Source of the DNA: Nitzschia sp. pyKryTriq1
Taxonomy: Eukaryota > Bacillariophyta > Bacillariophyceae > Bacillariales > Bacillariaceae
DNA: 64,000 bases
Direction of reading: 5' to 3'
Assembly: GCA_956465555.1 (NCBI GenBank)
Contig: OY101131.1
Span: forward strand, 633,469 to 697,468
Under the pieces are notes generated by a model. It saw only the letters and a program-made list of their open reading frames with translations. It ran no database searches and was not told where the DNA came from. Shown here in pieces: positions 19,581 to 57,155 of this stretch; the stretch's first letter is position 1; each line of letters opens with the position of its first letter. A program made the position numbers and the translations under genes.

Positions 19581-21216
19581 CTAGAAACCTGGTGCTTCTA
19601 GAAGACTCAGCACGAGACCAACACCGTAGCCGGTGCTACGTTCACCATTCATGGCCGGTCCCGCCATGTCAACATGTATCCATCCACCTTGGTAAGACTC
19701 CTGTAGATGCGATTCAATAAAATGCCCAGCACAAGACGCTTGAGCATTCGCCCGATCCTTGACGCTATTTTTCATATCGGCAACTTCACTTTTGAATTCG
19801 TCCATCAACAGTTCCGGGGCGTACAGCAGCGGATAGCACAAATCTCCCGAATGCATGCCTGCTTGGACGGCCCGCGTTTCCAATTCAGGTTTGTTGCATA
19901 ACACTCCCGCGTGTTTGTGCCCTGTAGTAACCATAACTGCACCCGTCAAGGTAGCCATGTCCACCACCAAATCCAAGTTTTCAATGTGTTTGGTCGCGTG
20001 CGCTACTCCATCCCCCAGTACCAAACGTCCTTCGGCATCGGCATTGTTGACTTCAACGGTCTTTCCACTGTACATTTCCAAGATATCTACGAAACGAGTA
20101 GTAGAGAGGATACGTCCGAATGAGAGGATTGAATGTGATGGTGGAGTCTCCATAATAAATGTGTGCCATTCCATCAATCTTTTCGTTTTGTTCTTACGTA
20201 CCATCATTTCGAAAGGCATCGGGACCAATAGCATTTTCGGCCAGACAGAGAATACACACCACTTTCTTTGCGACACCCAGTTCGACGGCGGCAAAGAAGC
20301 CACCCAGCAATCCTCCCGCACCACCCATGTCATGCTTCATTCCACACATTCCTACTTTGGGTTTCAACGACAAACCACCGGTATCGAAGACAATACCCTT
20401 GCCGACCAAAGCGACCGTCTCGACAGTTTTGCCGTTGCTTCCATCGTACTCCAGAATGATCAAACGCGGGGGGCAGTTGGCCGCTTTTCCTACCCCATGG
20501 AGGCCACCGTATCCTTTGGCCGCCAATTCGTCTCCCACGATCTCTGTTAGTTTGACTTTGGGCGAATGTTCTTGGACTAATGCTTCTACTTCCTTGGAAA
20601 ATTGGGTAGTCGTCAAGAGTTCGGGGTGCGAATCGACCAATCGCGCCGTCAATTGTGTTCCCTTGGCGGCCACTTGCGCAGCTTGAATCTGCGTGGCATC
20701 CTGGACCACGCTTCCGTCCTTCTTGACAAAGATAATATGCAAATTTTTCGGCTCTTTCTTGTCACCGGTTTTCATGCTGAACAGAGAAAAGGCTTTGGCG
20801 ATCGCCATGCCTAGTGGACCGACGGAAAAGTCGTCCGACAAGACAATCAAGCGTGAGTTCTTGGATCCTTTGTTGACGGCGCTCCGTGCGAGCTTAGTCA
20901 AGGTGTGGACCGCCATGGGATGGTTGTGTCGGGATAACTTGGAAGGCAGCCCGGCCAAGGTGAGTCGATGAACGGCATCATCGCCGACTGCTACGAGCGT
21001 GGACGACGGACTTCCTCCCGTCTTGTCGTCGAGCGATTCCACCAAAGATTCCAAGACAGGCGGAGAAATCAGATCCTTCAAGCCGAGAGGACCCAACAGC
21101 GAGGGCAACAATAAGGCTTCGACCGACGCCTTTTTACCAATGATCATGGTCGAATCATACTCTTTCAGTTCGCCTTGCCAGGACGACTGAAACAAGAGGT
21201 TGGTGGTATTAGCCAT
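19581..21216 (-). CDS. Leucyl aminopeptidase, peptidase family M17 (paralogue A)
   Basis: Exons 21216-20202 and 20086-19581 join to 506 residues; the 115-nt intron (GTACGT donor, phase 1) splits the codon in FRND|DILEMY. The M17 catalytic domain is complete: GKGIVFDTGG at 272-281 (Lys and Asp metal ligands), MKHDMGGA, and NNADAEGRL at 352-360 (Asp and Glu ligands plus the catalytic Arg). It is a two-metal enzyme that removes N-terminal residues, usually as a hexamer. I start at MANTTN; the same frame is open to an ATG at 21444 that would add 76 residues with a hydrophobic stretch (LMHFLILLSFYCC). From the shorter start it would be cytosolic. Paralogue B lies at 28449-30538 in the opposite orientation and shares the position of the last intron. 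Confidence 0.9.
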
Positions 21217-21685
21217 GATGATGATACAGTTCGTACGTGATGTACGCACTGTAAGCCTGAATGAAACTGAGATTGCTACTGCGTGTGACGGAAGTGACCG
21301 AAACCACACAAGCCGATGATTAATAGATGCAAATAAGCAGCAGTAGAAGGACAGCAGGATAAGAAAATGCATGAGTGCGACGACGATGTGATGAAAAAAT
21401 TCGGAGTCGACGATGGAGCGATGATTCGATGCGTGACACGACAAACATCACGCGCGTCAGTACTCGTATTGCGCCGCCGGGGGCGGTCGGGTCGGTCCGT
21501 CGAGTCGATTTTTCTCGCAGGTTGCGGGTATCATCGTACGAACTATAGAACCAGCAGAGAACATTCGTACTAATACCGTAACCTGATAGCAGGAGTAGCG
21601 ATGAGAGTGACGACAACTCAAGGAGCAGTGTTATATGTTTGAGCCAGCCGACGAAGGCCTTCTTGCTATAAGTTGTTCATCTATT
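21217..21685. other. 5' flank of aminopeptidase A and 3' flank of the S28 gene
   Basis: About 470 bp between two minus-strand genes. It holds the promoter and possible N-terminal extension of aminopeptidase A. Nothing else recognised. Confidence 0.5.
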
Positions 21686-27953: not shown

Positions 27954-28448
27954 TAGCCTTTCTTCGACCAAAGAACAAGGCATGGAAGTAGGTGGTTCGT
28001 CTTCTTTTCCTCTATTAGGAGGGGGTCGCTGCTTCTTCTTCTCGTGTTGGGAGGACCACGTAACGGCTGGAGCGATGCTTGATATAGTGGAATAAGAACA
28101 CCAAGTTTCTTCTGACAGCCCCCAGCAACGTTTCTGGGGGGTTTTCGCGCAGGTTCATTTTGTCGTGCTTATTTGATGGATTTGGTGGCGTGATCTTGCG
28201 CGAGAAAATTCCTCGAGCTCTTGCGAAACGCGAGGTCTGGAGCGCACGTAGACATTCTATGTACTACTGCGTTGGCACCCATAGCACAGCACTGCGGCCA
28301 GCATGCATAATATACAGCCGCAAAAGATCTTTTTCCTTGTGTCGACAAAAAATCTCTTTCTTCAGCAATGCTTCTGCATACAATCAGTCATTGTTGTATC
28401 GTCACTACTACTACTTGTTTGTTTTCACCTCCAGCACCACGAGCCACC
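27954..28448. other. Divergent region with a 7-bp GC hairpin
   Basis: Between the sulfotransferase (-) and aminopeptidase B (+). It may hold the missing first exon of the sulfotransferase. A hairpin CCCCCAG (28119-28125) / CTGGGGG (28134-28140) followed by G and a T4 run is the only structure seen. Confidence 0.45.
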
Positions 28449-30538
28449 ATGAGAAAATTGTGGCATTGTACGAGTCCACTTTTTTGGTTGACGACGACGA
28501 CGACGACGACGAGCGTACCTACTGTGCGAGTATCGGCATTTTCGACCCTTCGACTACCAGCGGCGGTGCAGGTGTCATCGACACTGAAGAAGCAGCAGCG
28601 CTGGTCGTCGGGCAAAATATTATCCTCCGGTACTACGGAGGGACGTTTTATTTCTTCCAGCAGTGGCAGGAGTGGCAGCAGTACGAGTACCAGTACACTT
28701 ACCCAGCTTCATGCCACCACTAACCTAATATTCGAATCCTCCTGGCCGAGCGGAGACGTGAAGGATTTCAATGCCACGACGGTTGTCGGGAAGAAAGGCT
28801 CCATGGAAGAATGGTTGCCGCAGCTGTTGGATCCACTGGGATTAAAGGATTTGACACCTGCCGCAGTCACCAAAGCGATGATCCAATCCTTGGATGTGAA
28901 AACGGGAGGAGGATCCTCGTCCACCCTCTTGGCAGTAGAAGGCAATGGCGATGGCGACGACGACGGCGACGATGTCGTCCATCGGCTTGTGGTGGCGGGC
29001 CTCCCTTCCAAACTCTCTCGTCATAATCACCCCATGGCGGTTCATACTTTGACAAAATTAGTGGGCGGTGCTGCCAAAGGAGATCGATCTCGGCTAGTCG
29101 TTCTGACGGACGATTTTGCCATTGGACCGTTGGCACTGGCCATTGCCAAAGCCTTTCCACTGTTTTCCATGAAAAGTACTAACAACAACAACAACAACAA
29201 CAACAACGGCGGCAGCAAAAAACCCACTAAGGACAAAGACTTGCACATTATCTTTGTCAAATCAGATGGGGGTGTAGTGGACGATCCTCAACAACTCAGA
29301 GCAGCTCAGGTTGCTGCCAAGGGGGCACAACTCAGTGCTCGTTTGGTGGATTCGCATCCCGAATTATTGACGACGAGCCAATTTTCCAAGGAAGTCAAGA
29401 AATTGGTCGAAGAACAGCAGGGCAAAGTCCAAATGACGGAAATTATTGGAAAGGAACTAGCGATAAAAGGCTATGGTGGTCTGTACGGTGTTGGTAAGGC
29501 AGCCAATTGCCCTCCGCGAATGATCATCTTGGAATATGACGACGGGGATGCTGATTCCGAGACTGTCGCTCTGGTCGGAAAAGGGATTGTGTACGATACG
29601 GGAGGTCTTTCCTTGAAGGCAAGTGTAATAATCCAGCAGTCTCTTTGTTGGGTGTCCCTTTATCATCCATGGGGTATATTCTCACCTTTTTTTTATTTCA
29701 CATATCATGCTGTCTCTTTCGTTTCTTTGTTGTCGTCCGTCCATCAGACTCGCGCTGGAATGGCCGGGATGAAGCATGACATGGGAGGTGCCGCCGGCAT
29801 GGTGGGTGGTTTTTTTAGTGCCGTAGAGTTGGGTGTGTCCAAGAAGGTGACCTGTATTCTCTGTTTGGCGGAAAACGCAATCGGACCCGACGCCTTTCGA
29901 AACGATGGTACGTAGCGTACGGACAGACAGGAATGCTGTTGTGGATTGTTTGTTACTTCGGTGAGATAGTCAACAACATTCAGCTGATCGTCCGTTGTCT
30001 CATACACTATGCTATTTCAATTGTGCTGGTAGATATTTTGGAAATGTACAGTGGAAAGACAGTCGAAGTCAACAATTGCGATGCCGAAGGACGATTAGTA
30101 TTGGGAGATGGAGTGGCCCACGCCACCAAGCACATTGAAAACTTGAATCTAGTGGTGGATATGGCAACGCTGACTGGCGCCCAACTGGTGGCCACAGGAA
30201 AAAAGCATGCTGGAATCCTCTGTAACACTCCGGAAGTGGAAACGCGGGCCATGGCAGCGGGGTTGCATTCGGGAGATTTGTGCTATCCGTTGTTGTACGC
30301 CCCGGAACTACTGATGGACGAATTCAAAAGTGAAGTAGCGGATATGAAAAATAGCGTCAAGGATCGGTCCAACGCGCAGACGTCCTGCGCGGGGCATTTT
30401 ATCGAAGCCCATTTGGATGAATCCTACGAAGGAGGATGGCTGCATGTCGACATGGCAGGGCCTGGAACAAATGGACAACGCGGTACCGGCTATGGGGTGG
30501 GGCTCGTCTTGAGTCTTTTGGATGCACCGGGTTTCTAG
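28449..30538 (+). CDS. Leucyl aminopeptidase, peptidase family M17 (paralogue B, organelle-targeted)
   Basis: Exons 28449-29618, 29748-29907 and 30033-30538 join to 611 residues. The start is chosen for its GCCACCATG context. The M17 motifs are intact: GKGIVYDTGGLSLK, MKHDMGGA and NNCDAEGRL. Against paralogue A it has a longer N-terminus rich in Ser/Thr with VSA|FSTLRLP at 28-37, which resembles a plastid signal cleavage site, so plastid or mitochondrial import is likely. Intron 2 (125 nt) sits exactly where paralogue A has its intron. Intron 1 (29619-29747) is absent from A and has a GC donor (AAG|GCAAGT) and CAG acceptor. It is 129 nt long and free of in-frame stops, so its retention would insert 43 residues inside the catalytic motif. 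An Asn run (NNNNNNNNN) is inserted near residue 245. Confidence 0.9.
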
Positions 30539-48959: not shown

Positions 48960-49767
48960 CTTGATGCAATTCTAACTACTGTAGGAAGTCTAGCTGGAAG
49001 GCGAGCAATGTGTGTATAGCGTGGAAGTACTTGGAGACCACAGGTGGCAGAGGTCTTCAGTCAACAACTTTCAACTTCCTTGCCCAAACAAAAGATATCT
49101 GGCTGCGTCCGCCGATATAATAAAATAATGTTGGAGAAAACGAGAAAGAAAGTAGAAGAAGCTTCGTCGTCGTCATCGTCGTCGGCAGATGGATCTTGTG
49201 GTCAGAGTCATTCTGGTTGGTCCAATTACCGCCGCGGGTTTCGTCGCCGCGCGCGCATCTCCAAAGGCGAAGGGCGCGAAGGAGAAAATGAGCGGACGAC
49301 AGTCGCTCGGACGAGTTCGCCTTCCACCGTCCAGTTCCAGCGAACGACGGACGGAATTTGAAGTCGGAGAAGTCAACGAAGGCGGTTTTGCTATTAGCTG
49401 GACGGACCGCCAGACATCGGACGGACGGACGGACGCGAAGTCCAACATGACACTACCAGGTACTACAGTACGTACGGAACCTACCGGTAATAATAATATC
49501 ACTACTCGGTCTACTGCTATTACTACGAGCTATCTCTACTAGCTAGCAGAGAGTAGCTACTCTACTCTACTCTAGAGTAGAGAGCTACTCTACTCTACTC
49601 TAGAGAGTAGAGAGGTACTCTGTTGTTAGTAGCAGAGCAAGAAAGAGCAAAGTTTTATCGTATTACTCCCACTTCTTGTGAGTTACAAAGTAGTCGGTAG
49701 AGGCAGAGTACGGTACTCCACATCGCCCTACTACTCTCTCTAGTAGTAGTAGTAGAGCAGTGGTAGT
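48960..49767. other. Intergenic region with CTACTCTAGAGTAG palindromes
   Basis: About 800 bp. 49530-49620 is a chain of CTACTCTACTCTAGAGTAGAG-like pieces that could fold on themselves. Overlapping open frames at 49040-49540 on both strands have no recognisable domain and are not called. Holds the ATAD3-like promoter and the 3' flank of the RND gene. Confidence 0.55.
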
Positions 49768-52700
49768 CTAGTAGAGAGAGATATTGCCAGTAGTAGAGCC
49801 ATCTCCAGGTTTCTCGCTCATGGTCAAACCATCAGCAAAGCGGTCGTCATCTTCTTGGGATGATGGTGCCGGCGGGTTTGATGATGATGATGATGATTCC
49901 TCCAGTACCTCGTCGTTTGCCACTAAAGCTTTTTCTGCTACTAGTAGAGGGCCCGCAATGGATAGCCAGGCCGGCAAAAAGCACATACTGAAGACCAACG
50001 CAAAGATGGTGATGGAGCAAATCAAGAGACCCAGTTCGACAAAGACGTAGGTCCGGCAGCCAAACAAGAAGAGGCATCCCCCGATAGTTGACAAGGCAGA
50101 GGCGATGATGGGGGACCCCGTTGTGAATATGGCACTTCGTACCTTGTCTTCCCGCCGAAGCATTCGATCAGGAGAGTGCTGATAGGCATGAACGATGTGC
50201 AGGGAGTAATTGGCGCTCAGCCCAATGAAAATGGACACTCCCAACGCTTCAACCGGACCAAAGGGCAGCATGAAGACCCCAAATAAGACTCCGGCAAGAC
50301 AGAGGAATATCAAAATGATGACACTCATGACCATGAGGCTCAACCGGATACTCCTTGTAAACATCAGAATTATGAGCAAGCAGAGTGCGTTCGCGATGAT
50401 CCAAGACGTTGCAGTAGAAGAAATGGTCTCTTCGGATCTGTGTGCGTTCAGAAAGGTCCTACTTTGGGCAACTGCCGGTGTGACTTTCGGAGGTGCAATC
50501 GCGTTCACCGAATCGACAAATTCGGTCCATTTCCGTAGAGTGGCCGAACTTAGTGACTCTCCGTCACGGGCACTCTCTACCACATCGGCCAACAAAGTCA
50601 CGCTGGCAAACAAAAAGTCGCCTGCGAGGCCTGGTGACCGAGTTCCAAGCTCGCTTCGAATGAGACTGGCAAAGTCTGCATTTTGATCTTTCAAAAGTTG
50701 AAGATATCCGACAAAGAGATCCCTGGGAACTGGAAACCCTAATCCTGCATCAACAGCAGAGCGCTCGAGGATCTCAATCCAAGTCGGCTTGTCGGTTTGA
50801 ACGGAAAGATCCGTTGCATTTCGTGCAAGCTTAACGACTTTCAACATCCACTCTTGGAATTGTGGGTGCGCAACGTCGATATCGCTTTCGAGCGAAACAC
50901 CTGAGTCGGCATTGCTGTTCGACTCGCTATCACTTTTGTCTGGTGGAGAGTAGTCGCTCCGGAATGCCCAAAGTTCAGATCGTTGGTCAAGACGCTCGGC
51001 GCCCCACACCAACGAAACAACAACGGCTTGTCTTCTTTTCAGTGTCTTGTCCCCATTATCTCCTTCTTGGTTCCTGGTGCTGCAATCACGACCCGAGAAT
51101 CCGTCAAAGCATCGACAGATGGTACTTCCAGGAACACCGTTGGGGTGGGGAATACAGTCGCCATTTCCGGTACAGTATCGACCGTTGATGGGACAGATGG
51201 GCAAGGCACAAGTTTCTCCGGCCCAACCATTTCCACAGCTACACGATCCGTAGAAGTTACAAATGCCGCCATTCTGACACAAGTTGTAGCATGTCGGAAG
51301 ACCGTTTTCGTCGAGTGCCACCAGCCCGTCAGTACCTGGTGAACCTCCGGAACTACCGCCAGTGCTACCACCGGCACTTCCATCACCTACGATTCCGGTA
51401 GAGCCAGTCGAGCCTCCTGAGGATGGCGGGGAAACGTTGGAGGAGCCTGAGTCTGAGCCTGAGCCATTATTATCCGACGGAGGCACTCCACTTCCAGGGT
51501 CAGTAGACACAGTTCCTGGGGGGGATGTCGCCCCGGGTGAGTCTGGATTGATGGTGAGACCATCCTCGTTGGGTATGTCTTGGTTACTTGAGCTTCCAGG
51601 ATTGGTAGCATTATTTGTCTCTCCTGCTGCGCCTGACGGCCCGTCAAACACGTCTCCAAAAATGGAACCGGTGGCATCTGGTTCAATCGTCTGCGTCAGG
51701 TCCCCGTTGAAGTATTTGGCGTTCAACGGTGTCAAACGGCCTAGGTTGTATTTTTCGGAAAAGAGGACAATGTTCCCGTCCGATATAGCAAAGCTCGTAA
51801 TACCGAAAATTCCCAGGGACACGGCGACAATCCCATGTATAATGAGGATATGTTTGCGTCGTCTTTGGACAAATGGAGAATATCTTAGCATCAGCCATCG
51901 GTCCATACGGTTTAGATCGTTTACGCGGTATTCGTCGGGACCGTCTTCGATTGATGGAGCCATTGCTGGGAGATGATCTTGTTTTTCTTGAGATTGTTCG
52001 GCTTGCTCAAGACCTTGCGAATGTGTGCTCGTCGAAGAGTCGTCGTCGCTCGCACCAAGAGAGTCGCTATTAGTCGAGCCTTGTTCGATGATGTCGTCCG
52101 ACTGGCCATTTTCATTGCATTGACCATTCGTACGCTCCATTTCAACTGGAGCTTCCTGGAGTTCTTTGATGCCACCAAAGCGCTTCTCTTTCCAAGGCAC
52201 AATGTAAAATTCGTTGACCAGAATCGCGCTCGGCAGAATCGTCATGACATGAATGAAATTGACCAAGACGACCATGCCCATGTAAATACCAAACTCCTTG
52301 ATGACAACGACTACAGCAAAAGCGTTGCTAAAAAAGCAGATCGCTGTTGTCAGACTCGAGACAAGCATCATGCTGCCTGCGGTGGAGTAGGCAGACTTCA
52401 TTCGTTCGCGGAGAACTTCCACTGCATCAAGACCATGATGCTTGCCACCGGATTCTTGAGTACCTTCGCCTCTACTCGTATCCTCGCAATTATCATTTTC
52501 AGAAGACGTTTTGCCTTGAACTGTGATCTTGGTATGTTCGAAGGAGTCAACCATGAGGAAGATGTCGTCAGCTCCGATCCCCATCATCACAAACAAGCTC
52601 GAAACATGGAGAAGCGTGATTTCGGGAATGTCAAAGTGGATTAAACACCAGTAGTATGCAGTCAAAAATGACAAGCCAAGTCCCAACATGCTTGTCAAGA

Positions 52701-55392
52701 AGACAAAGCCGTTCCGAACTTTGAAAAAGATCATAAGGCCGATAAACATGAAACTCCCACTGGCCCAAAGAGCATCGTGATTGACAGCTTCGTTGGCTTC
52801 TACGCTGGTCAAATAGTCATTCTGCCACGTGAAGACCATGTCGGGGTAGAGATATGGCTTCTTTTGATCCACCTTCCAGAAGAGGTCCCGGTGAATGCGT
52901 TTCAAGAAGTCCTCCATATCCGCTGGGTCAAGGTAGGAGTCCCGTAGCCACACAAAGGTACGAGTGATGTTGCTACCCAAGTTAGCAGGGCCAAAATATT
53001 GATCCATCTTCCAAAGGCTTGTCTCATCATCAAGAAACGTTCGAAGAACTCCATCGATGCTGTTGACAAGGCCTCCGTTTGGAAAGAATTGGGGGACGAT
53101 CGAGTCAAATGGCACACAGCGCCCAAAAGGAGCGTAGCAGAAGTCTTCGAATCCAGGAAAATCGTAAATCGATTGTTCAAAGTCTCTAATCGAATAGAGG
53201 ACTTCGGGAGTGAAGACAGATCCACCATTCCGGTTCTGGTAGATAAGCGTGATCACAGGCCCCGAGGGTTCCAAGAGCGTGTACTGTAAATCTCGATGTG
53301 GTGAGGGAAATCCAGGAAATGATGACAATTCATCCATTTGAAAAGGTGGTGCTTCAAAGATCTTGCGTTGGTCGTTTCCTTCTAGTATATCACAATTCGC
53401 CTCTTCAATTAGCAACGACTCTTCTTGATAGCTTTGAGCGGCCGAATAGCTACGAGACACAATCTCCAAATCTGTTTCAATCTCCAAGTAAGAATCAAAG
53501 TCCAAGTTTATCAGGACTTGGTAGTCGGACTTGGCGAAACCCAGCAAGCTTAGAAGGACTGGAATGAAGAGAGAAACTAAAAGGAAGATGCCTGGATGAT
53601 GCGTGAGAGCCATCAGCCACAATTGATTGGGAGACTTGGGAAGTGGGAGAATGCCCTCCCGCTGATATCGCCGCGTTTGAAAAAAGAAGAAAGCCCAGCC
53701 TAACAGGTAAAGGCCAACAATGATTGTTAGGATGGATAGAAACGTGAGACGAAACCCGTCATTGTCGTCGGCGTATTCGACATTGGACGATGATACATCA
53801 TTGGATGTGCTGGACTTGTTGGAAGACCAGGACATACCACGAGCAATTTTTCGAAGAAATGTTTTGATTTCATCACTCGAAGAGGTGGATTTGTCAGGAA
53901 AGGCGAAGATTGGGCAACTTTCTTCATCCCAAGTAGCTCCGTCATTTTCTCCCATCATATCTTCCACGGATGGAATGTAAAGATGAAATGTGTTGGATCG
54001 CGCCCGAACCAAATCCGCCCACCACGTAGCGGAGGTGGCAAGTTCATCCTCCCCGGATGGAATACCCCCAAACCAGGCGAAAGATGCTTGTGTCTTCAGT
54101 ACAAAATTTTGGATCACGGCCAAGAGCCCATCCTGCGAAAAAGTTGCTTTTTCTGCTTCCAGGAGTTCCTTGGGATTCCACGCGTCTCGAAGCTTTTGTA
54201 GGCTTACGATATCCCCGTCTTGGGCAAAGAGATCAGAGCCCTCAACCAAAATAAGTTGATTATTTGCGCCTGGCCCCATTTTGACTCCGTTCGCAAATAT
54301 CATGGGCCCCACACTTCTCAGCATACTATTGCTAATAGTACTCGTAGTCGTATCCTCGTCTTCCGAAGCAAAACATCCACCAACTTTTCCAGAGGGAAGA
54401 GTGATCAAGGCCTCCAGGCCACCAGAGGCCCCAAACTGCTCATTTACCCATTCCAGGACGGCCTGAAGGTTACTTCCCCCACGGAAATAATGACTCCTCT
54501 CTTCATTGTTGCAGTCGTCTCCAGATGATTCAGTTGGCATGGGTTGGTGTCCCAAATTCCAATCTAATGTACAGTGTGGAAGCAATAGGTAGCTCCAATC
54601 TTGAATGTCCTCATCCAAAGCTTGCCACCATTCTTTTTGACCGGTGCGGGCCTGTCGGAGACTCAATGGAACATCCTCTTTGGAGCCGATGACATTCATC
54701 AACTCGGAGTGCCCAAGCCGCACAAACCCGGGGGTAACTCCGGTACAACTATCGAGCGGAGGAAAGAGGCCGCTGGCCACAATTTCTGCTTCGAAGTTTT
54801 GGACGTAATCGTTCCACGGAGTCTGGCGCAAGCCATCTTGACAAATGCAAGAAGGGGGCGAGGAGCCTGCGGAGGTGTTGTTTGTCTCGGCTGCTGCCGA
54901 CGCTGCTGCTGCTGATGATGATGATGATGATTCGCCCCCCCAAGTAAAACAAGCAGGTCCTCCCTGGAATTCGACAACTAGTTTCGAAAGATGCGGATCA
55001 GTCCCTCGCTTAAAAGCAAAGCTATATGGACTCCCGTCCCCACAGATTGGTCTCAAATCATCAGTGTCGGAGTCGGACTTCTGGTAGCGATTCCCGTCGA
55101 GCAAGGGAAACTCCAGAAAGTAAAAGTTGTTGGGCGCTGTCAATGCGGACAAGGGCGATCGATAGGCGTTCAACAGTGCGCGGGGTTCCGCGTCGGAGGA
55201 GCTCCAACAAAAGGTATTGAGAAGGAACAAAATAATGGTCCATACCGGTATGGAAAGGCTACCACGGAAACGTCGATGTTGCCGCTGAGAGTCGATCATG
55301 GTGAAGTACGCTAGCATAACTGGTTTGGATACAATAGGAGCAATGGACCATCGACCATTCGTAAAGCTTGGGTTTCTCAAATCGTTTCTCAT
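49768..55392 (-). CDS. Pectinacetylesterase/Notum-like domain fused to a Dispatched/Patched-type RND transporter with EGF modules
   Basis: One uninterrupted frame of 1874 residues. Residues about 44-68 form a signal sequence. Residues 71-500 resemble the pectinacetylesterase/Notum family: LVVEFQGGPACFTWGG (138-153, the GGGxW/C oxyanion region) and LLPHCTLDWNLGHQ (270-283, as PxCTGDxHxG). The nucleophile elbow GxSAGG is not clear (ITLPSGKVGG at 330-339), so activity is doubtful. Then come two spans (548-571, 601-620), a lumenal loop, and a sterol-sensing-like block of spans (875-1060) with GIGADDIFLMVDSF at 938-951, the RND G-x-x-x-D-D motif of Dispatched/Patched proteins. A Gly/Ser-rich linker leads to two EGF-like modules (1368-1397, 1400-1437). 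The second RND half ends with GLSANYSLHIVHAY (1724-1737), in which the expected Asp is Asn. A lipid or sterol transporter with an attached hydrolase-fold ectodomain is inferred. Confidence 0.85.
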   Translation of the reverse strand: MRNDLRNPSFTNGRWSIAPIVSKPVMLAYFTMIDSQRQHRRFRGSLSIPVWTIILFLLNTFCWSSSDAEPRALLNAYRSPLSALTAPNNFYFLEFPLLDGNRYQKSDSDTDDLRPICGDGSPYSFAFKRGTDPHLSKLVVEFQGGPACFTWGGESSSSSSAAAASAAAETNNTSAGSSPPSCICQDGLRQTPWNDYVQNFEAEIVASGLFPPLDSCTGVTPGFVRLGHSELMNVIGSKEDVPLSLRQARTGQKEWWQALDEDIQDWSYLLLPHCTLDWNLGHQPMPTESSGDDCNNEERSHYFRGGSNLQAVLEWVNEQFGASGGLEALITLPSGKVGGCFASEDEDTTTSTISNSMLRSVGPMIFANGVKMGPGANNQLILVEGSDLFAQDGDIVSLQKLRDAWNPKELLEAEKATFSQDGLLAVIQNFVLKTQASFAWFGGIPSGEDELATSATWWADLVRARSNTFHLYIPSVEDMMGENDGATWDEESCPIFAFPDKSTSSSDEIKTFLRKIARGMSWSSNKSSTSNDVSSSNVEYADDNDGFRLTFLSILTIIVGLYLLGWAFFFFQTRRYQREGILPLPKSPNQLWLMALTHHPGIFLLVSLFIPVLLSLLGFAKSDYQVLINLDFDSYLEIETDLEIVSRSYSAAQSYQEESLLIEEANCDILEGNDQRKIFEAPPFQMDELSSFPGFPSPHRDLQYTLLEPSGPVITLIYQNRNGGSVFTPEVLYSIRDFEQSIYDFPGFEDFCYAPFGRCVPFDSIVPQFFPNGGLVNSIDGVLRTFLDDETSLWKMDQYFGPANLGSNITRTFVWLRDSYLDPADMEDFLKRIHRDLFWKVDQKKPYLYPDMVFTWQNDYLTSVEANEAVNHDALWASGSFMFIGLMIFFKVRNGFVFLTSMLGLGLSFLTAYYWCLIHFDIPEITLLHVSSLFVMMGIGADDIFLMVDSFEHTKITVQGKTSSENDNCEDTSRGEGTQESGGKHHGLDAVEVLRERMKSAYSTAGSMMLVSSLTTAICFFSNAFAVVVVIKEFGIYMGMVVLVNFIHVMTILPSAILVNEFYIVPWKEKRFGGIKELQEAPVEMERTNGQCNENGQSDDIIEQGSTNSDSLGASDDDSSTSTHSQGLEQAEQSQEKQDHLPAMAPSIEDGPDEYRVNDLNRMDRWLMLRYSPFVQRRRKHILIIHGIVAVSLGIFGITSFAISDGNIVLFSEKYNLGRLTPLNAKYFNGDLTQTIEPDATGSIFGDVFDGPSGAAGETNNATNPGSSSNQDIPNEDGLTINPDSPGATSPPGTVSTDPGSGVPPSDNNGSGSDSGSSNVSPPSSGGSTGSTGIVGDGSAGGSTGGSSGGSPGTDGLVALDENGLPTCYNLCQNGGICNFYGSCSCGNGWAGETCALPICPINGRYCTGNGDCIPHPNGVPGSTICRCFDGFSGRDCSTRNQEGDNGDKTLKRRQAVVVSLVWGAERLDQRSELWAFRSDYSPPDKSDSESNSNADSGVSLESDIDVAHPQFQEWMLKVVKLARNATDLSVQTDKPTWIEILERSAVDAGLGFPVPRDLFVGYLQLLKDQNADFASLIRSELGTRSPGLAGDFLFASVTLLADVVESARDGESLSSATLRKWTEFVDSVNAIAPPKVTPAVAQSRTFLNAHRSEETISSTATSWIIANALCLLIILMFTRSIRLSLMVMSVIILIFLCLAGVLFGVFMLPFGPVEALGVSIFIGLSANYSLHIVHAYQHSPDRMLRREDKVRSAIFTTGSPIIASALSTIGGCLFLFGCRTYVFVELGLLICSITIFALVFSMCFLPAWLSIAGPLLVAEKALVANDEVLEESSSSSSNPPAPSSQEDDDRFADGLTMSEKPGDGSTTGNISLY

Positions 55393-55874: not shown

Positions 55875-57155
55875 CTAGTCTGGCATTCGAGACATTTTTT
55901 CTCGAATGGCATCAACGTCATGGGGGTCGTCATCGTACCGGTCAAAGCAAGCTCGGCAAATAACAAAGCCCCGTCCATTGCAGCTTGTACAAGTCACCGT
56001 CCGATCCCCCATGGCCACGTAATTACCGACGCCGTCACAATTTGGACAGGGGGTACATCGTGTATCATTGCACACAAGACAAGGATCTTGTTGGTTCCGA
56101 GTAGTACTAGTAGTGCTGGCAGAGTACGCGACGGAAGATTCTTTGGTAGCGGACAGCCAATTCCAAACCCCCCGCGCCAAGTTACCATTGGCAGGTCCAC
56201 CCAGGAAATACACTGGCAGGATCCAGAGCGGAAAGAATCCCGTCTCGCCGAGATCGGTATAATGATAGCCTCCCGCCAAAATGCCCTGGTTCGTACACCA
56301 AATCAACACCACTTCGATCATGGGTCCTCCCACTCCCGTGGCGGCACTTGTGATCAGCCCCGATAATGTCCCGTCCAATACCCAAAATCCAATGGAGGCA
56401 AATATCGACATGAGATTGAGAATGACCATCCGATCGACTCCCGCCTGCACCAAATAGCCACTGAGCCAGTATTGGAGCGTGAAAAAGGAAATCCCTAGAA
56501 GAATCTTGGCGGGGGATGGCGAAGTAGCCAAGGCCTTATTGTTGGAATCACCATTTTCTTTCCCCAAAAGGATAGTAGCGTCCAAGAGTATGTACAACCA
56601 CCCGATCAAGAAACCCGCTACACCGAAGAGAGCAGGAACCCACCAAGCTGTAGTCAACGCTGGATACTGGGAAGTTCCCCACAAAATATATTGAATGGGT
56701 TCATTGTACTGCAAGACTCCGAAAGCACTGTGATAGCTATCCAAAAAAGGACCCAGGATAGCGCCACAAGTAGACATAAGAATTGAAAAGAGGATTGATC
56801 GTTTGGGGTCGTTCGTCACTGGAGACCACCAATCAACTGACGGCTCGGACGAAGGGTCTCCATGTCCACTCTCGGAGGATTTTCCACGTAACATTGTGGG
56901 CGAGCGTGTTGAAGACTCTCGCCGTTGTCTTAGACAGCTTGCTTGTTCCACTGAGAGTATCCTGTGCTTACACCCCGTGCCAATATTGAAATTCCCAGGA
57001 CAAGAATTGCAGGCAGTGAACGATGAAGACGTACAAAACCCGCCAACGGGTAGAACCTGACGCCCTTCCAGTATTATTATTCCAAACAGCAGCAACCATC
57101 TCCCACGAAGCGCCCCCCTGGCTGTCCTTCGGCTTTTGGTTCCTTGAATCATCAT
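55875..57155 (-). CDS. INSIG-like multispan membrane protein with C-terminal DnaJ-type zinc finger, plastid-directed
   Basis: Single exon, 426 residues. The N-terminus is basic then hydrophobic (RWLLLFGIIILEG) and reaches VGGFCTSSSF, with Phe40 in the position used for plastid import. Residues about 120-330 hold around six spans with INSIG-like landmarks: WWVPALFGVAGFLIGWLY, SIFASIGFWVLDGTLSG, GGYHYTDLGETGF, and LWILPVYFLGGPANGNLARG, in the order seen in insulin-induced-gene proteins. The C-terminus carries four CxxC pairs (CLVCNDTRCTPCPNC, CTSCNGRGFVICRAC) of the DnaJ Cys-rich type with CxGxG spacing. In animals INSIG holds sterol sensors in the ER; a plastid version with a redox/zinc module would act in assembly or membrane-protein handling, which is inference. 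Transcribed in the same direction as the RND gene just downstream. Confidence 0.75.
   Translation of the reverse strand: MMIQGTKSRRTARGALRGRWLLLFGIIILEGRQVLPVGGFCTSSSFTACNSCPGNFNIGTGCKHRILSVEQASCLRQRRESSTRSPTMLRGKSSESGHGDPSSEPSVDWWSPVTNDPKRSILFSILMSTCGAILGPFLDSYHSAFGVLQYNEPIQYILWGTSQYPALTTAWWVPALFGVAGFLIGWLYILLDATILLGKENGDSNNKALATSPSPAKILLGISFFTLQYWLSGYLVQAGVDRMVILNLMSIFASIGFWVLDGTLSGLITSAATGVGGPMIEVVLIWCTNQGILAGGYHYTDLGETGFFPLWILPVYFLGGPANGNLARGVWNWLSATKESSVAYSASTTSTTRNQQDPCLVCNDTRCTPCPNCDGVGNYVAMGDRTVTCTSCNGRGFVICRACFDRYDDDPHDVDAIREKMSRMPD

Follow-up and report, generated by a model that had tools for sequence, protein, structure and literature searches.

The locus and its open reading frame

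We analysed a stretch of 64,000 nucleotides of the diatom Nitzschia sp. pyKryTriq1 (assembly GCA_956465555.1, contig OY101131.1, positions 633,469 to 697,468), hereafter the window, whose minus strand contains an open reading frame (ORF) of 1874 codons without any stop codon (49768-55392). An earlier reading of the nucleotide sequence (the original prediction) had described this single frame as a pectinacetylesterase (PAE)/Notum-like ectodomain fused to a Dispatched/Patched-type RND transporter, and the frame was found as described. At about 48% GC the length of the ORF would be far above chance expectation, and Met32 (55299), located directly ahead of a signal-like stretch, is the likelier start. 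The proposed order of signal sequence, PAE-like domain, RND half with a GIGADD motif, Gly/Ser linker, two EGF-like modules and second RND half was correct (Table 1), and an extra transmembrane (TM) helix, absent from the earlier list of domains, was found at residues 551-569. The EGF-like modules were recognised by Pfam (EGF_2, 26.7 bits against a cut-off of 22.1) and by the EGF pattern at residues 1384 and 1426. Neither Rfam families nor tRNA genes were detected in the window, and short repeats (CTACT and GAGTAGA runs) were observed at 49540-49767, immediately downstream of the stop codon of the ORF.

Codon scoring was trained on eight further long ORFs from the window, and the six frames were compared in 25 bins. 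The ORF frame scored highest in 15 of them; among the other ten were the first bin, several rich in TM segments and the one containing the PAE/RND junction (526-600), where the score was neutral (0.001). This neutral score, as well as the intron-like breaking of other RND genes of this genome into several open frames (see below), would fit an artefact of the gene model, with the PAE-like and RND parts on separate transcripts or with the junction excised by an intron, an outcome that the original prediction had named as evidence against itself. However, the frame lacks any stop codon, the only GTRAGY-type donor within the ORF was at codon 396, with no donor-consensus site near the junction, and the extra TM helix puts both parts on the same side of the membrane according to hydropathy. 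We consider such an artefact very improbable.

TM segments were called from hydropathy alone. Seventeen windows were above the threshold and three of these (15-33, 1587-1605 and 1802-1820) were discarded by eye to match the RND pattern, leaving 13 TM segments plus one signal-like stretch, as predicted from hydropathy and flanking charges, with a sterol-sensing domain (SSD) recognised by Pfam. In the predicted topology the signal sequence would place the N-terminal domain outside the cell or in the lumen, and the extra TM helix, followed by RRYQR, would let TM1 of the RND core begin from the cytosol, as required.

Table 1. Features of the ORF (window positions) and genomic stretches containing the other RND genes
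Feature	Residues	Position	Strand	Basis
Complete ORF (1874 codons); Met32 (55299) as probable start		49768..55392	-	Frame observed; start inferred
Signal-like sequence (hydrophobic stretch 44-62)	44-66	55195..55263	-	Hydropathy only
PAE/Notum-like N-terminal ectodomain; sequence support in first half	about 83-520	53833..55146	-	Profile and fold prediction
PAE block 1, CGDGSPYSF...KLVVEFQGGPACF	112-157	54922..55059	-	Pfam, bacterial PAE profile
PAE block 2, DWSYLLLPHCTLD...FRGGSNLQAVLEWV	263-320	54433..54606	-	Bacterial PAE profile, hhalign
Degenerate nucleophile elbow	330-340	54373..54405	-	Alignment with bacterial PAE rows
Extra TM helix after the ectodomain and before the RND core, then RRYQR	551-569	53686..53742	-	Hydropathy
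RND TM1	602-620	53533..53589	-	Hydropathy
First RND ectodomain	625-875	52768..53520	-	Location between TM1 and TM2
TM2-6, Patched/sterol-sensing domain		52216..52767	-	PF02460 and PF12349 above cut-off
GIGADD motif of TM4 (D942, D943)	938-943	52564..52581	-	Sequence, alignment
TM7	1182-1200	51793..51849	-	Hydropathy
Gly/Ser-rich linker in second ectodomain		51313..51645	-	Sequence
Two EGF-like modules	1366-1441	51070..51297	-	Pfam and pattern
TM8-12, MMPL-type second half		49948..50415	-	PF03176 and hydropathy
Asn1728 in TM10	1728	50209..50211	-	Alignment with Dispatched and other RND genes
Other RND gene stretch L010		C14:149000-158900		
Other RND gene stretch L011		C12:1426500-1436400		
Other RND gene stretch L012		C11:549000-558900		

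Similarity of the N-terminal domain to PAE and Notum

A set of bacterial PAE proteins was gathered with a PAE motif, which gave at least 120 stretches. The 80 stretches used contained 61 complete ORFs of at least 280 amino acids, and the 55 of 280-480 amino acids bearing the motif were used to build a profile. Forty-three of these 55 were retained as alignment rows, the other 12, mostly close kin of rows retained, being removed by eye. The N-terminal domain scored 49.4 bits against the profile (best of 1000 shuffles, 4.6). Because the bacterial set had been fished with the block 1 motif, residues 181-540 were scored apart, and these alone gave 18.6 bits, against a maximum of 5.5 in 2000 shuffles. 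With hhalign the domain aligned with a probability of 97.6% and a score of 89.7, the best of 100 shuffles reaching 25.1. These results support the proposed relationship of the ectodomain to PAE and Notum, as judged by sequence comparison. The closest profile found was that of a bacterial PAE-like secreted family (CSDGSPYxFxVRxG...FQGGGACW), and the block 1 motif, which we take to be the oxyanion-loop region, was mostly kept, with FQGGPAC in place of FQGGGAC. A Pfam scan of the domain (maximum E of 10) listed PAE alone, and no NPC1-type sterol-binding N-terminal domain.

The genome (40.65 Mb in 20 contigs) contained eight matches to silicon transporters (best E=6.9e-266), a family associated with diatoms, in keeping with the source. 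The domain was found once in this genome, and the PAE family profile gave no match there at E<=1e-3. A bacterial PAE protein gave none up to E=10, a result of little weight, since the window's own domain was likewise missed. No N-terminal domain of this kind was found among plasmids and no close relative of the whole protein among viral contigs.

The active site

Notum and the plant PAEs are reported to have a catalytic triad of S, D and H (PMC5465549). In our bacterial alignment the Ser of SAG and an Asp were invariant (43/43 each) and a His was conserved in 42 of the 43 rows; these were taken as the triad by analogy. The elbow of the window protein reads TLPSGKVGG, without GxSxG in any register considered, and the residue aligned to the catalytic Ser is Pro333, a shift by one residue bringing in Ser334. 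The sole His after the elbow is H470, with none in residues 471-540, where the conserved one was expected, and thus the window protein lacks this His, unless H470 substitutes for it from its earlier position. The conserved Asp had no reliable placement. The elbow, suspected to be altered since the original prediction, is altered indeed, and the alignment suggests that the domain is catalytically degenerate and probably inactive.

An active enzyme, hydrolysing an acyl or acetyl ester via Ser334 in the altered elbow and leaving the product to be exported or removed by the RND core, would be in keeping with the good preservation of block 1 and with the single register that retains Ser334. The absence of GxSxG and of a His in 471-540, as compared with the nearly invariant bacterial column, argues against it, and we regard an active deacylase-exporter as quite improbable.

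The RND core and the other RND genes of the genome

Three Pfam families, MMPL (2.1e-13), Patched (2.3e-7) and sterol-sensing domain (1.2e-6), matched the RND part above their cut-offs, in agreement with the RND and SSD assignment proposed for it. In a search of PDB sequences Dispatched led (6tbu, 1.9e-16, 61.6 bits) and the top eight matches were all Dispatched, with NPC1L1 (7.2e-7) and bacterial HpnN (0.019) as further matches. The best NCBIfam profile was the prokaryotic HAE3 (TIGR00921; 60 bits, E=1.2e-16, the family cut-off being 351.9 bits), and the NPC1 and Patched profiles were lower. A Dispatched-like core is supported by these pairwise and profile scores, although the HAE3 score speaks against a firm assignment to Dispatched.

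TM4 reads GIGADD, with D942 and D943 intact, and TM10 reads IGLSANYSLH, in which Asn1728 occupies the position of the Dispatched Asp in the PDB alignments. Consequently, of the acidic set of Dispatched (two in TM4 and one in TM10), the TM4 pair is kept and the TM10 acid is replaced, as had been suspected for the Asp of the second RND half. Four further genes matching Patched were detected, two on C14, one on C12 and one on C11, this number being a lower bound. Their TM10 column was acidic in every case (D, D, D and E) and their TM4 reads GAGD, GADN, GVDD and GVDD; the first C14 gene and the C12 gene have the TM4 pair altered (GAGD, GADN) and the TM10 Asp kept, the reverse of the window protein. 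Each of the four is split over more than one open frame, in a manner suggestive of introns, and the two on C14 neighbour each other. The 9.9-kb stretches around them showed no PAE-profile match above 1.6 bits and no EGF pattern, indicating that both the head and the EGF modules are particular to the window gene among the RND genes found; a family of RND paralogues sharing the PAE head was consequently set aside.

The TM10 residue bears on a second interpretation, in which ion coupling has been lost and the protein is a non-transporting, SCAP-like receptor or sensor. A ligand would be sensed by the pseudo-hydrolase head together with the EGF modules, and the SSD would signal via partners, perhaps the product of the adjoining gene. 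Asn1728, at a position with D or E in the four other genes, is consistent with this, and so is the Dispatched protein with three Asp of TM4 and TM10 changed to Asn, for which blocked Shh transport and strengthened binding are reported (PMC8630017). However, that mutant has three Asp changed and the window protein only that of TM10, the TM4 pair remaining intact.

The adjoining gene, on the same strand about 480 bases upstream of the ORF (55875-57155, 426 amino acids), showed weak similarity to INSIG over nearly the full family (E=1.1e-4, 22.4 bits, below the cut-off of 28) and E=0.045 against an INSIG-2 chain. Its INSIG-like part is followed by a Cys-rich region (Pfam GRXCR1-2_C under the cut-off; similar to DnaJ by eye). 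In animals, sterol-sensing domains are bound by INSIG. Such a neighbour counts in favour of a sensor; against this, the similarity is below the cut-off and adjacency is all that ties the neighbour to the RND protein. The INSIG family gave no match in the genome, where the controls were likewise silent. On balance, a receptor or sensor seems somewhat unlikely.

A possible function for the fusion protein

Sterols and proteins bearing lipids are the substrates of the RND group that includes NPC1, Patched and Dispatched, and their route to the membrane core is debated. Dispatched, which releases Hedgehog in animals, is the best relative of the window core among solved structures and shares with it the SSD and the GxGADD motif in TM4. 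In contrast, the window protein adds a signal stretch, the PAE-like ectodomain, an extra TM helix and the EGF modules, and has Asn for the TM10 Asp. HAE3-type transporters, whose match is far below the family cut-off, lack the head, the extra TM helix and the EGF modules. By its predicted layout of an N-terminal lumenal domain, one TM helix and an RND core with an SSD, 13 TM segments in total, the window protein resembles NPC1 and NPC1L1, and NPC1 also carries a signal peptide. The window protein differs from them in that its N-terminal domain is PAE/Notum-like and its core scores higher with Dispatched. NPC1 itself has been described as a protein of 13 TM segments; its N-terminal domain, for which a transfer of cholesterol to the SSD was proposed, functions even if provided as a piece of its own (PMC6062155). 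The predicted arrangement of the window protein, in which the signal stretch is followed by a lumenal domain, the extra TM helix and the RND core, resembles NPC1 more than a deacylase fused to an exporter.

Two collinear conserved blocks are shared with the Notum/PAE family (PF03283), as would be the fold predicted by a model guided by PAE rows; the domain differs from that family in lacking GxSxG and the conserved His, in scoring below the Pfam cut-off and in being fused to a membrane protein. No TM domain was predicted for the Arabidopsis PAEs, most of which have a signal peptide and two a predicted glycosylphosphatidylinositol anchor (PMC5465549). All 43 bacterial rows matched PAE alone in Pfam, and none of eight long bacterial PAE ORFs scanned had an RND match at E<=0.01. 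Four of these eight (L020, L054, L065 and L072) had a C-terminal metallo-beta-lactamase-fold domain.

We tentatively favour a protein of the secretory pathway in which a degenerate PAE/Notum-related head, N-terminal to a Dispatched-like RND core in an NPC1-like layout, would serve in ligand capture and hand-off. The ectodomain would capture a lipid or an acylated ligand without hydrolysis and hand it to the RND ectodomains and the SSD, as proposed for the N-terminal domain of NPC1 with cholesterol; the EGF-bearing second ectodomain may contact a carrier or the cell coat, and ion coupling would be altered or borne by D942/D943 alone.

Several results weigh against this reading. Pfam PAE gave 18.5 bits with the domain (E=0.0011, below the cut-off of 26.6, block 1 only) and 14.7 bits with the whole protein, whereas the 43 bacterial rows all matched it at E<=0.001. 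No PDB sequence was matched by the domain with phmmer up to E=10. Significant similarity is limited to residues 112-157 and 263-320, the confident hhalign alignment covering 55 columns of block 2, and nothing in the second half of the domain matched significantly by itself. The Notum-type fold is a prediction: in the structural check proposed originally, a guided AlphaFold model matched Notum in Foldseek, at TM-scores of 0.32-0.36 (query) and 0.40-0.46 (target) and a root mean square deviation of 9-13 A, and the single-sequence model (pLDDT 33) gave no Foldseek match at E<=0.001. The guided model was supplied with PAE rows, so its support is not independent, and 177 of its 473 residues were below pLDDT 50. 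In addition, one elbow register would retain the Ser, the RND part scores about equally with the HAE3 profile and with Dispatched, and the fusion, supported by its sequence, is seen in one genome only.

The suggestion that the pairing recalls the animal Notum plus Dispatched pathway was not supported, considering that the closest profile is bacterial, that GxSxG and the His are lost and that TM10 has Asn. The Wnt and Hedgehog families, including the ligand of Dispatched, gave no match in the genome, but the search controls were also silent and absence is not established; such a system was set aside as unsupported only. It is conceivable, if unlikely, that diatoms independently made an NPC1-like lipid loader by combining a Dispatched-type RND core with a dead Notum-type deacylase domain and its acyl-binding pocket. 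It would bind lipid-modified proteins or cell-coat glycolipids and load or release them, as a one-chain protist counterpart of the animal Notum and Dispatched steps.

If true, the natural swap of a Notum-related domain for the NPC1 N-terminal domain would directly test the hand-off model, and would point to lipid-ligand handling in diatoms, a system of which no description was found in the open-access literature searched. Among the matches listed there (titles and beginnings of abstracts), no PAE/Notum domain fused to a Dispatched/NPC1-type RND or SSD protein was reported, none joined Dispatched with pectinacetylesterase (or pectin acetylesterase) and none of the diatom, sterol-sensing domain or Patched papers dealt with this protein; no paper contained both pectinacetylesterase and Niemann-Pick. 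The architecture thus appears as undescribed there as originally stated, and the fusion may sit unremarked in eukaryotic protein databases.

Other genes in the window

Two frames of the window, 20194-21372 on the minus strand and 28368-29915 on the plus strand, both matched M17 aminopeptidase, with some 7 kb separating them.
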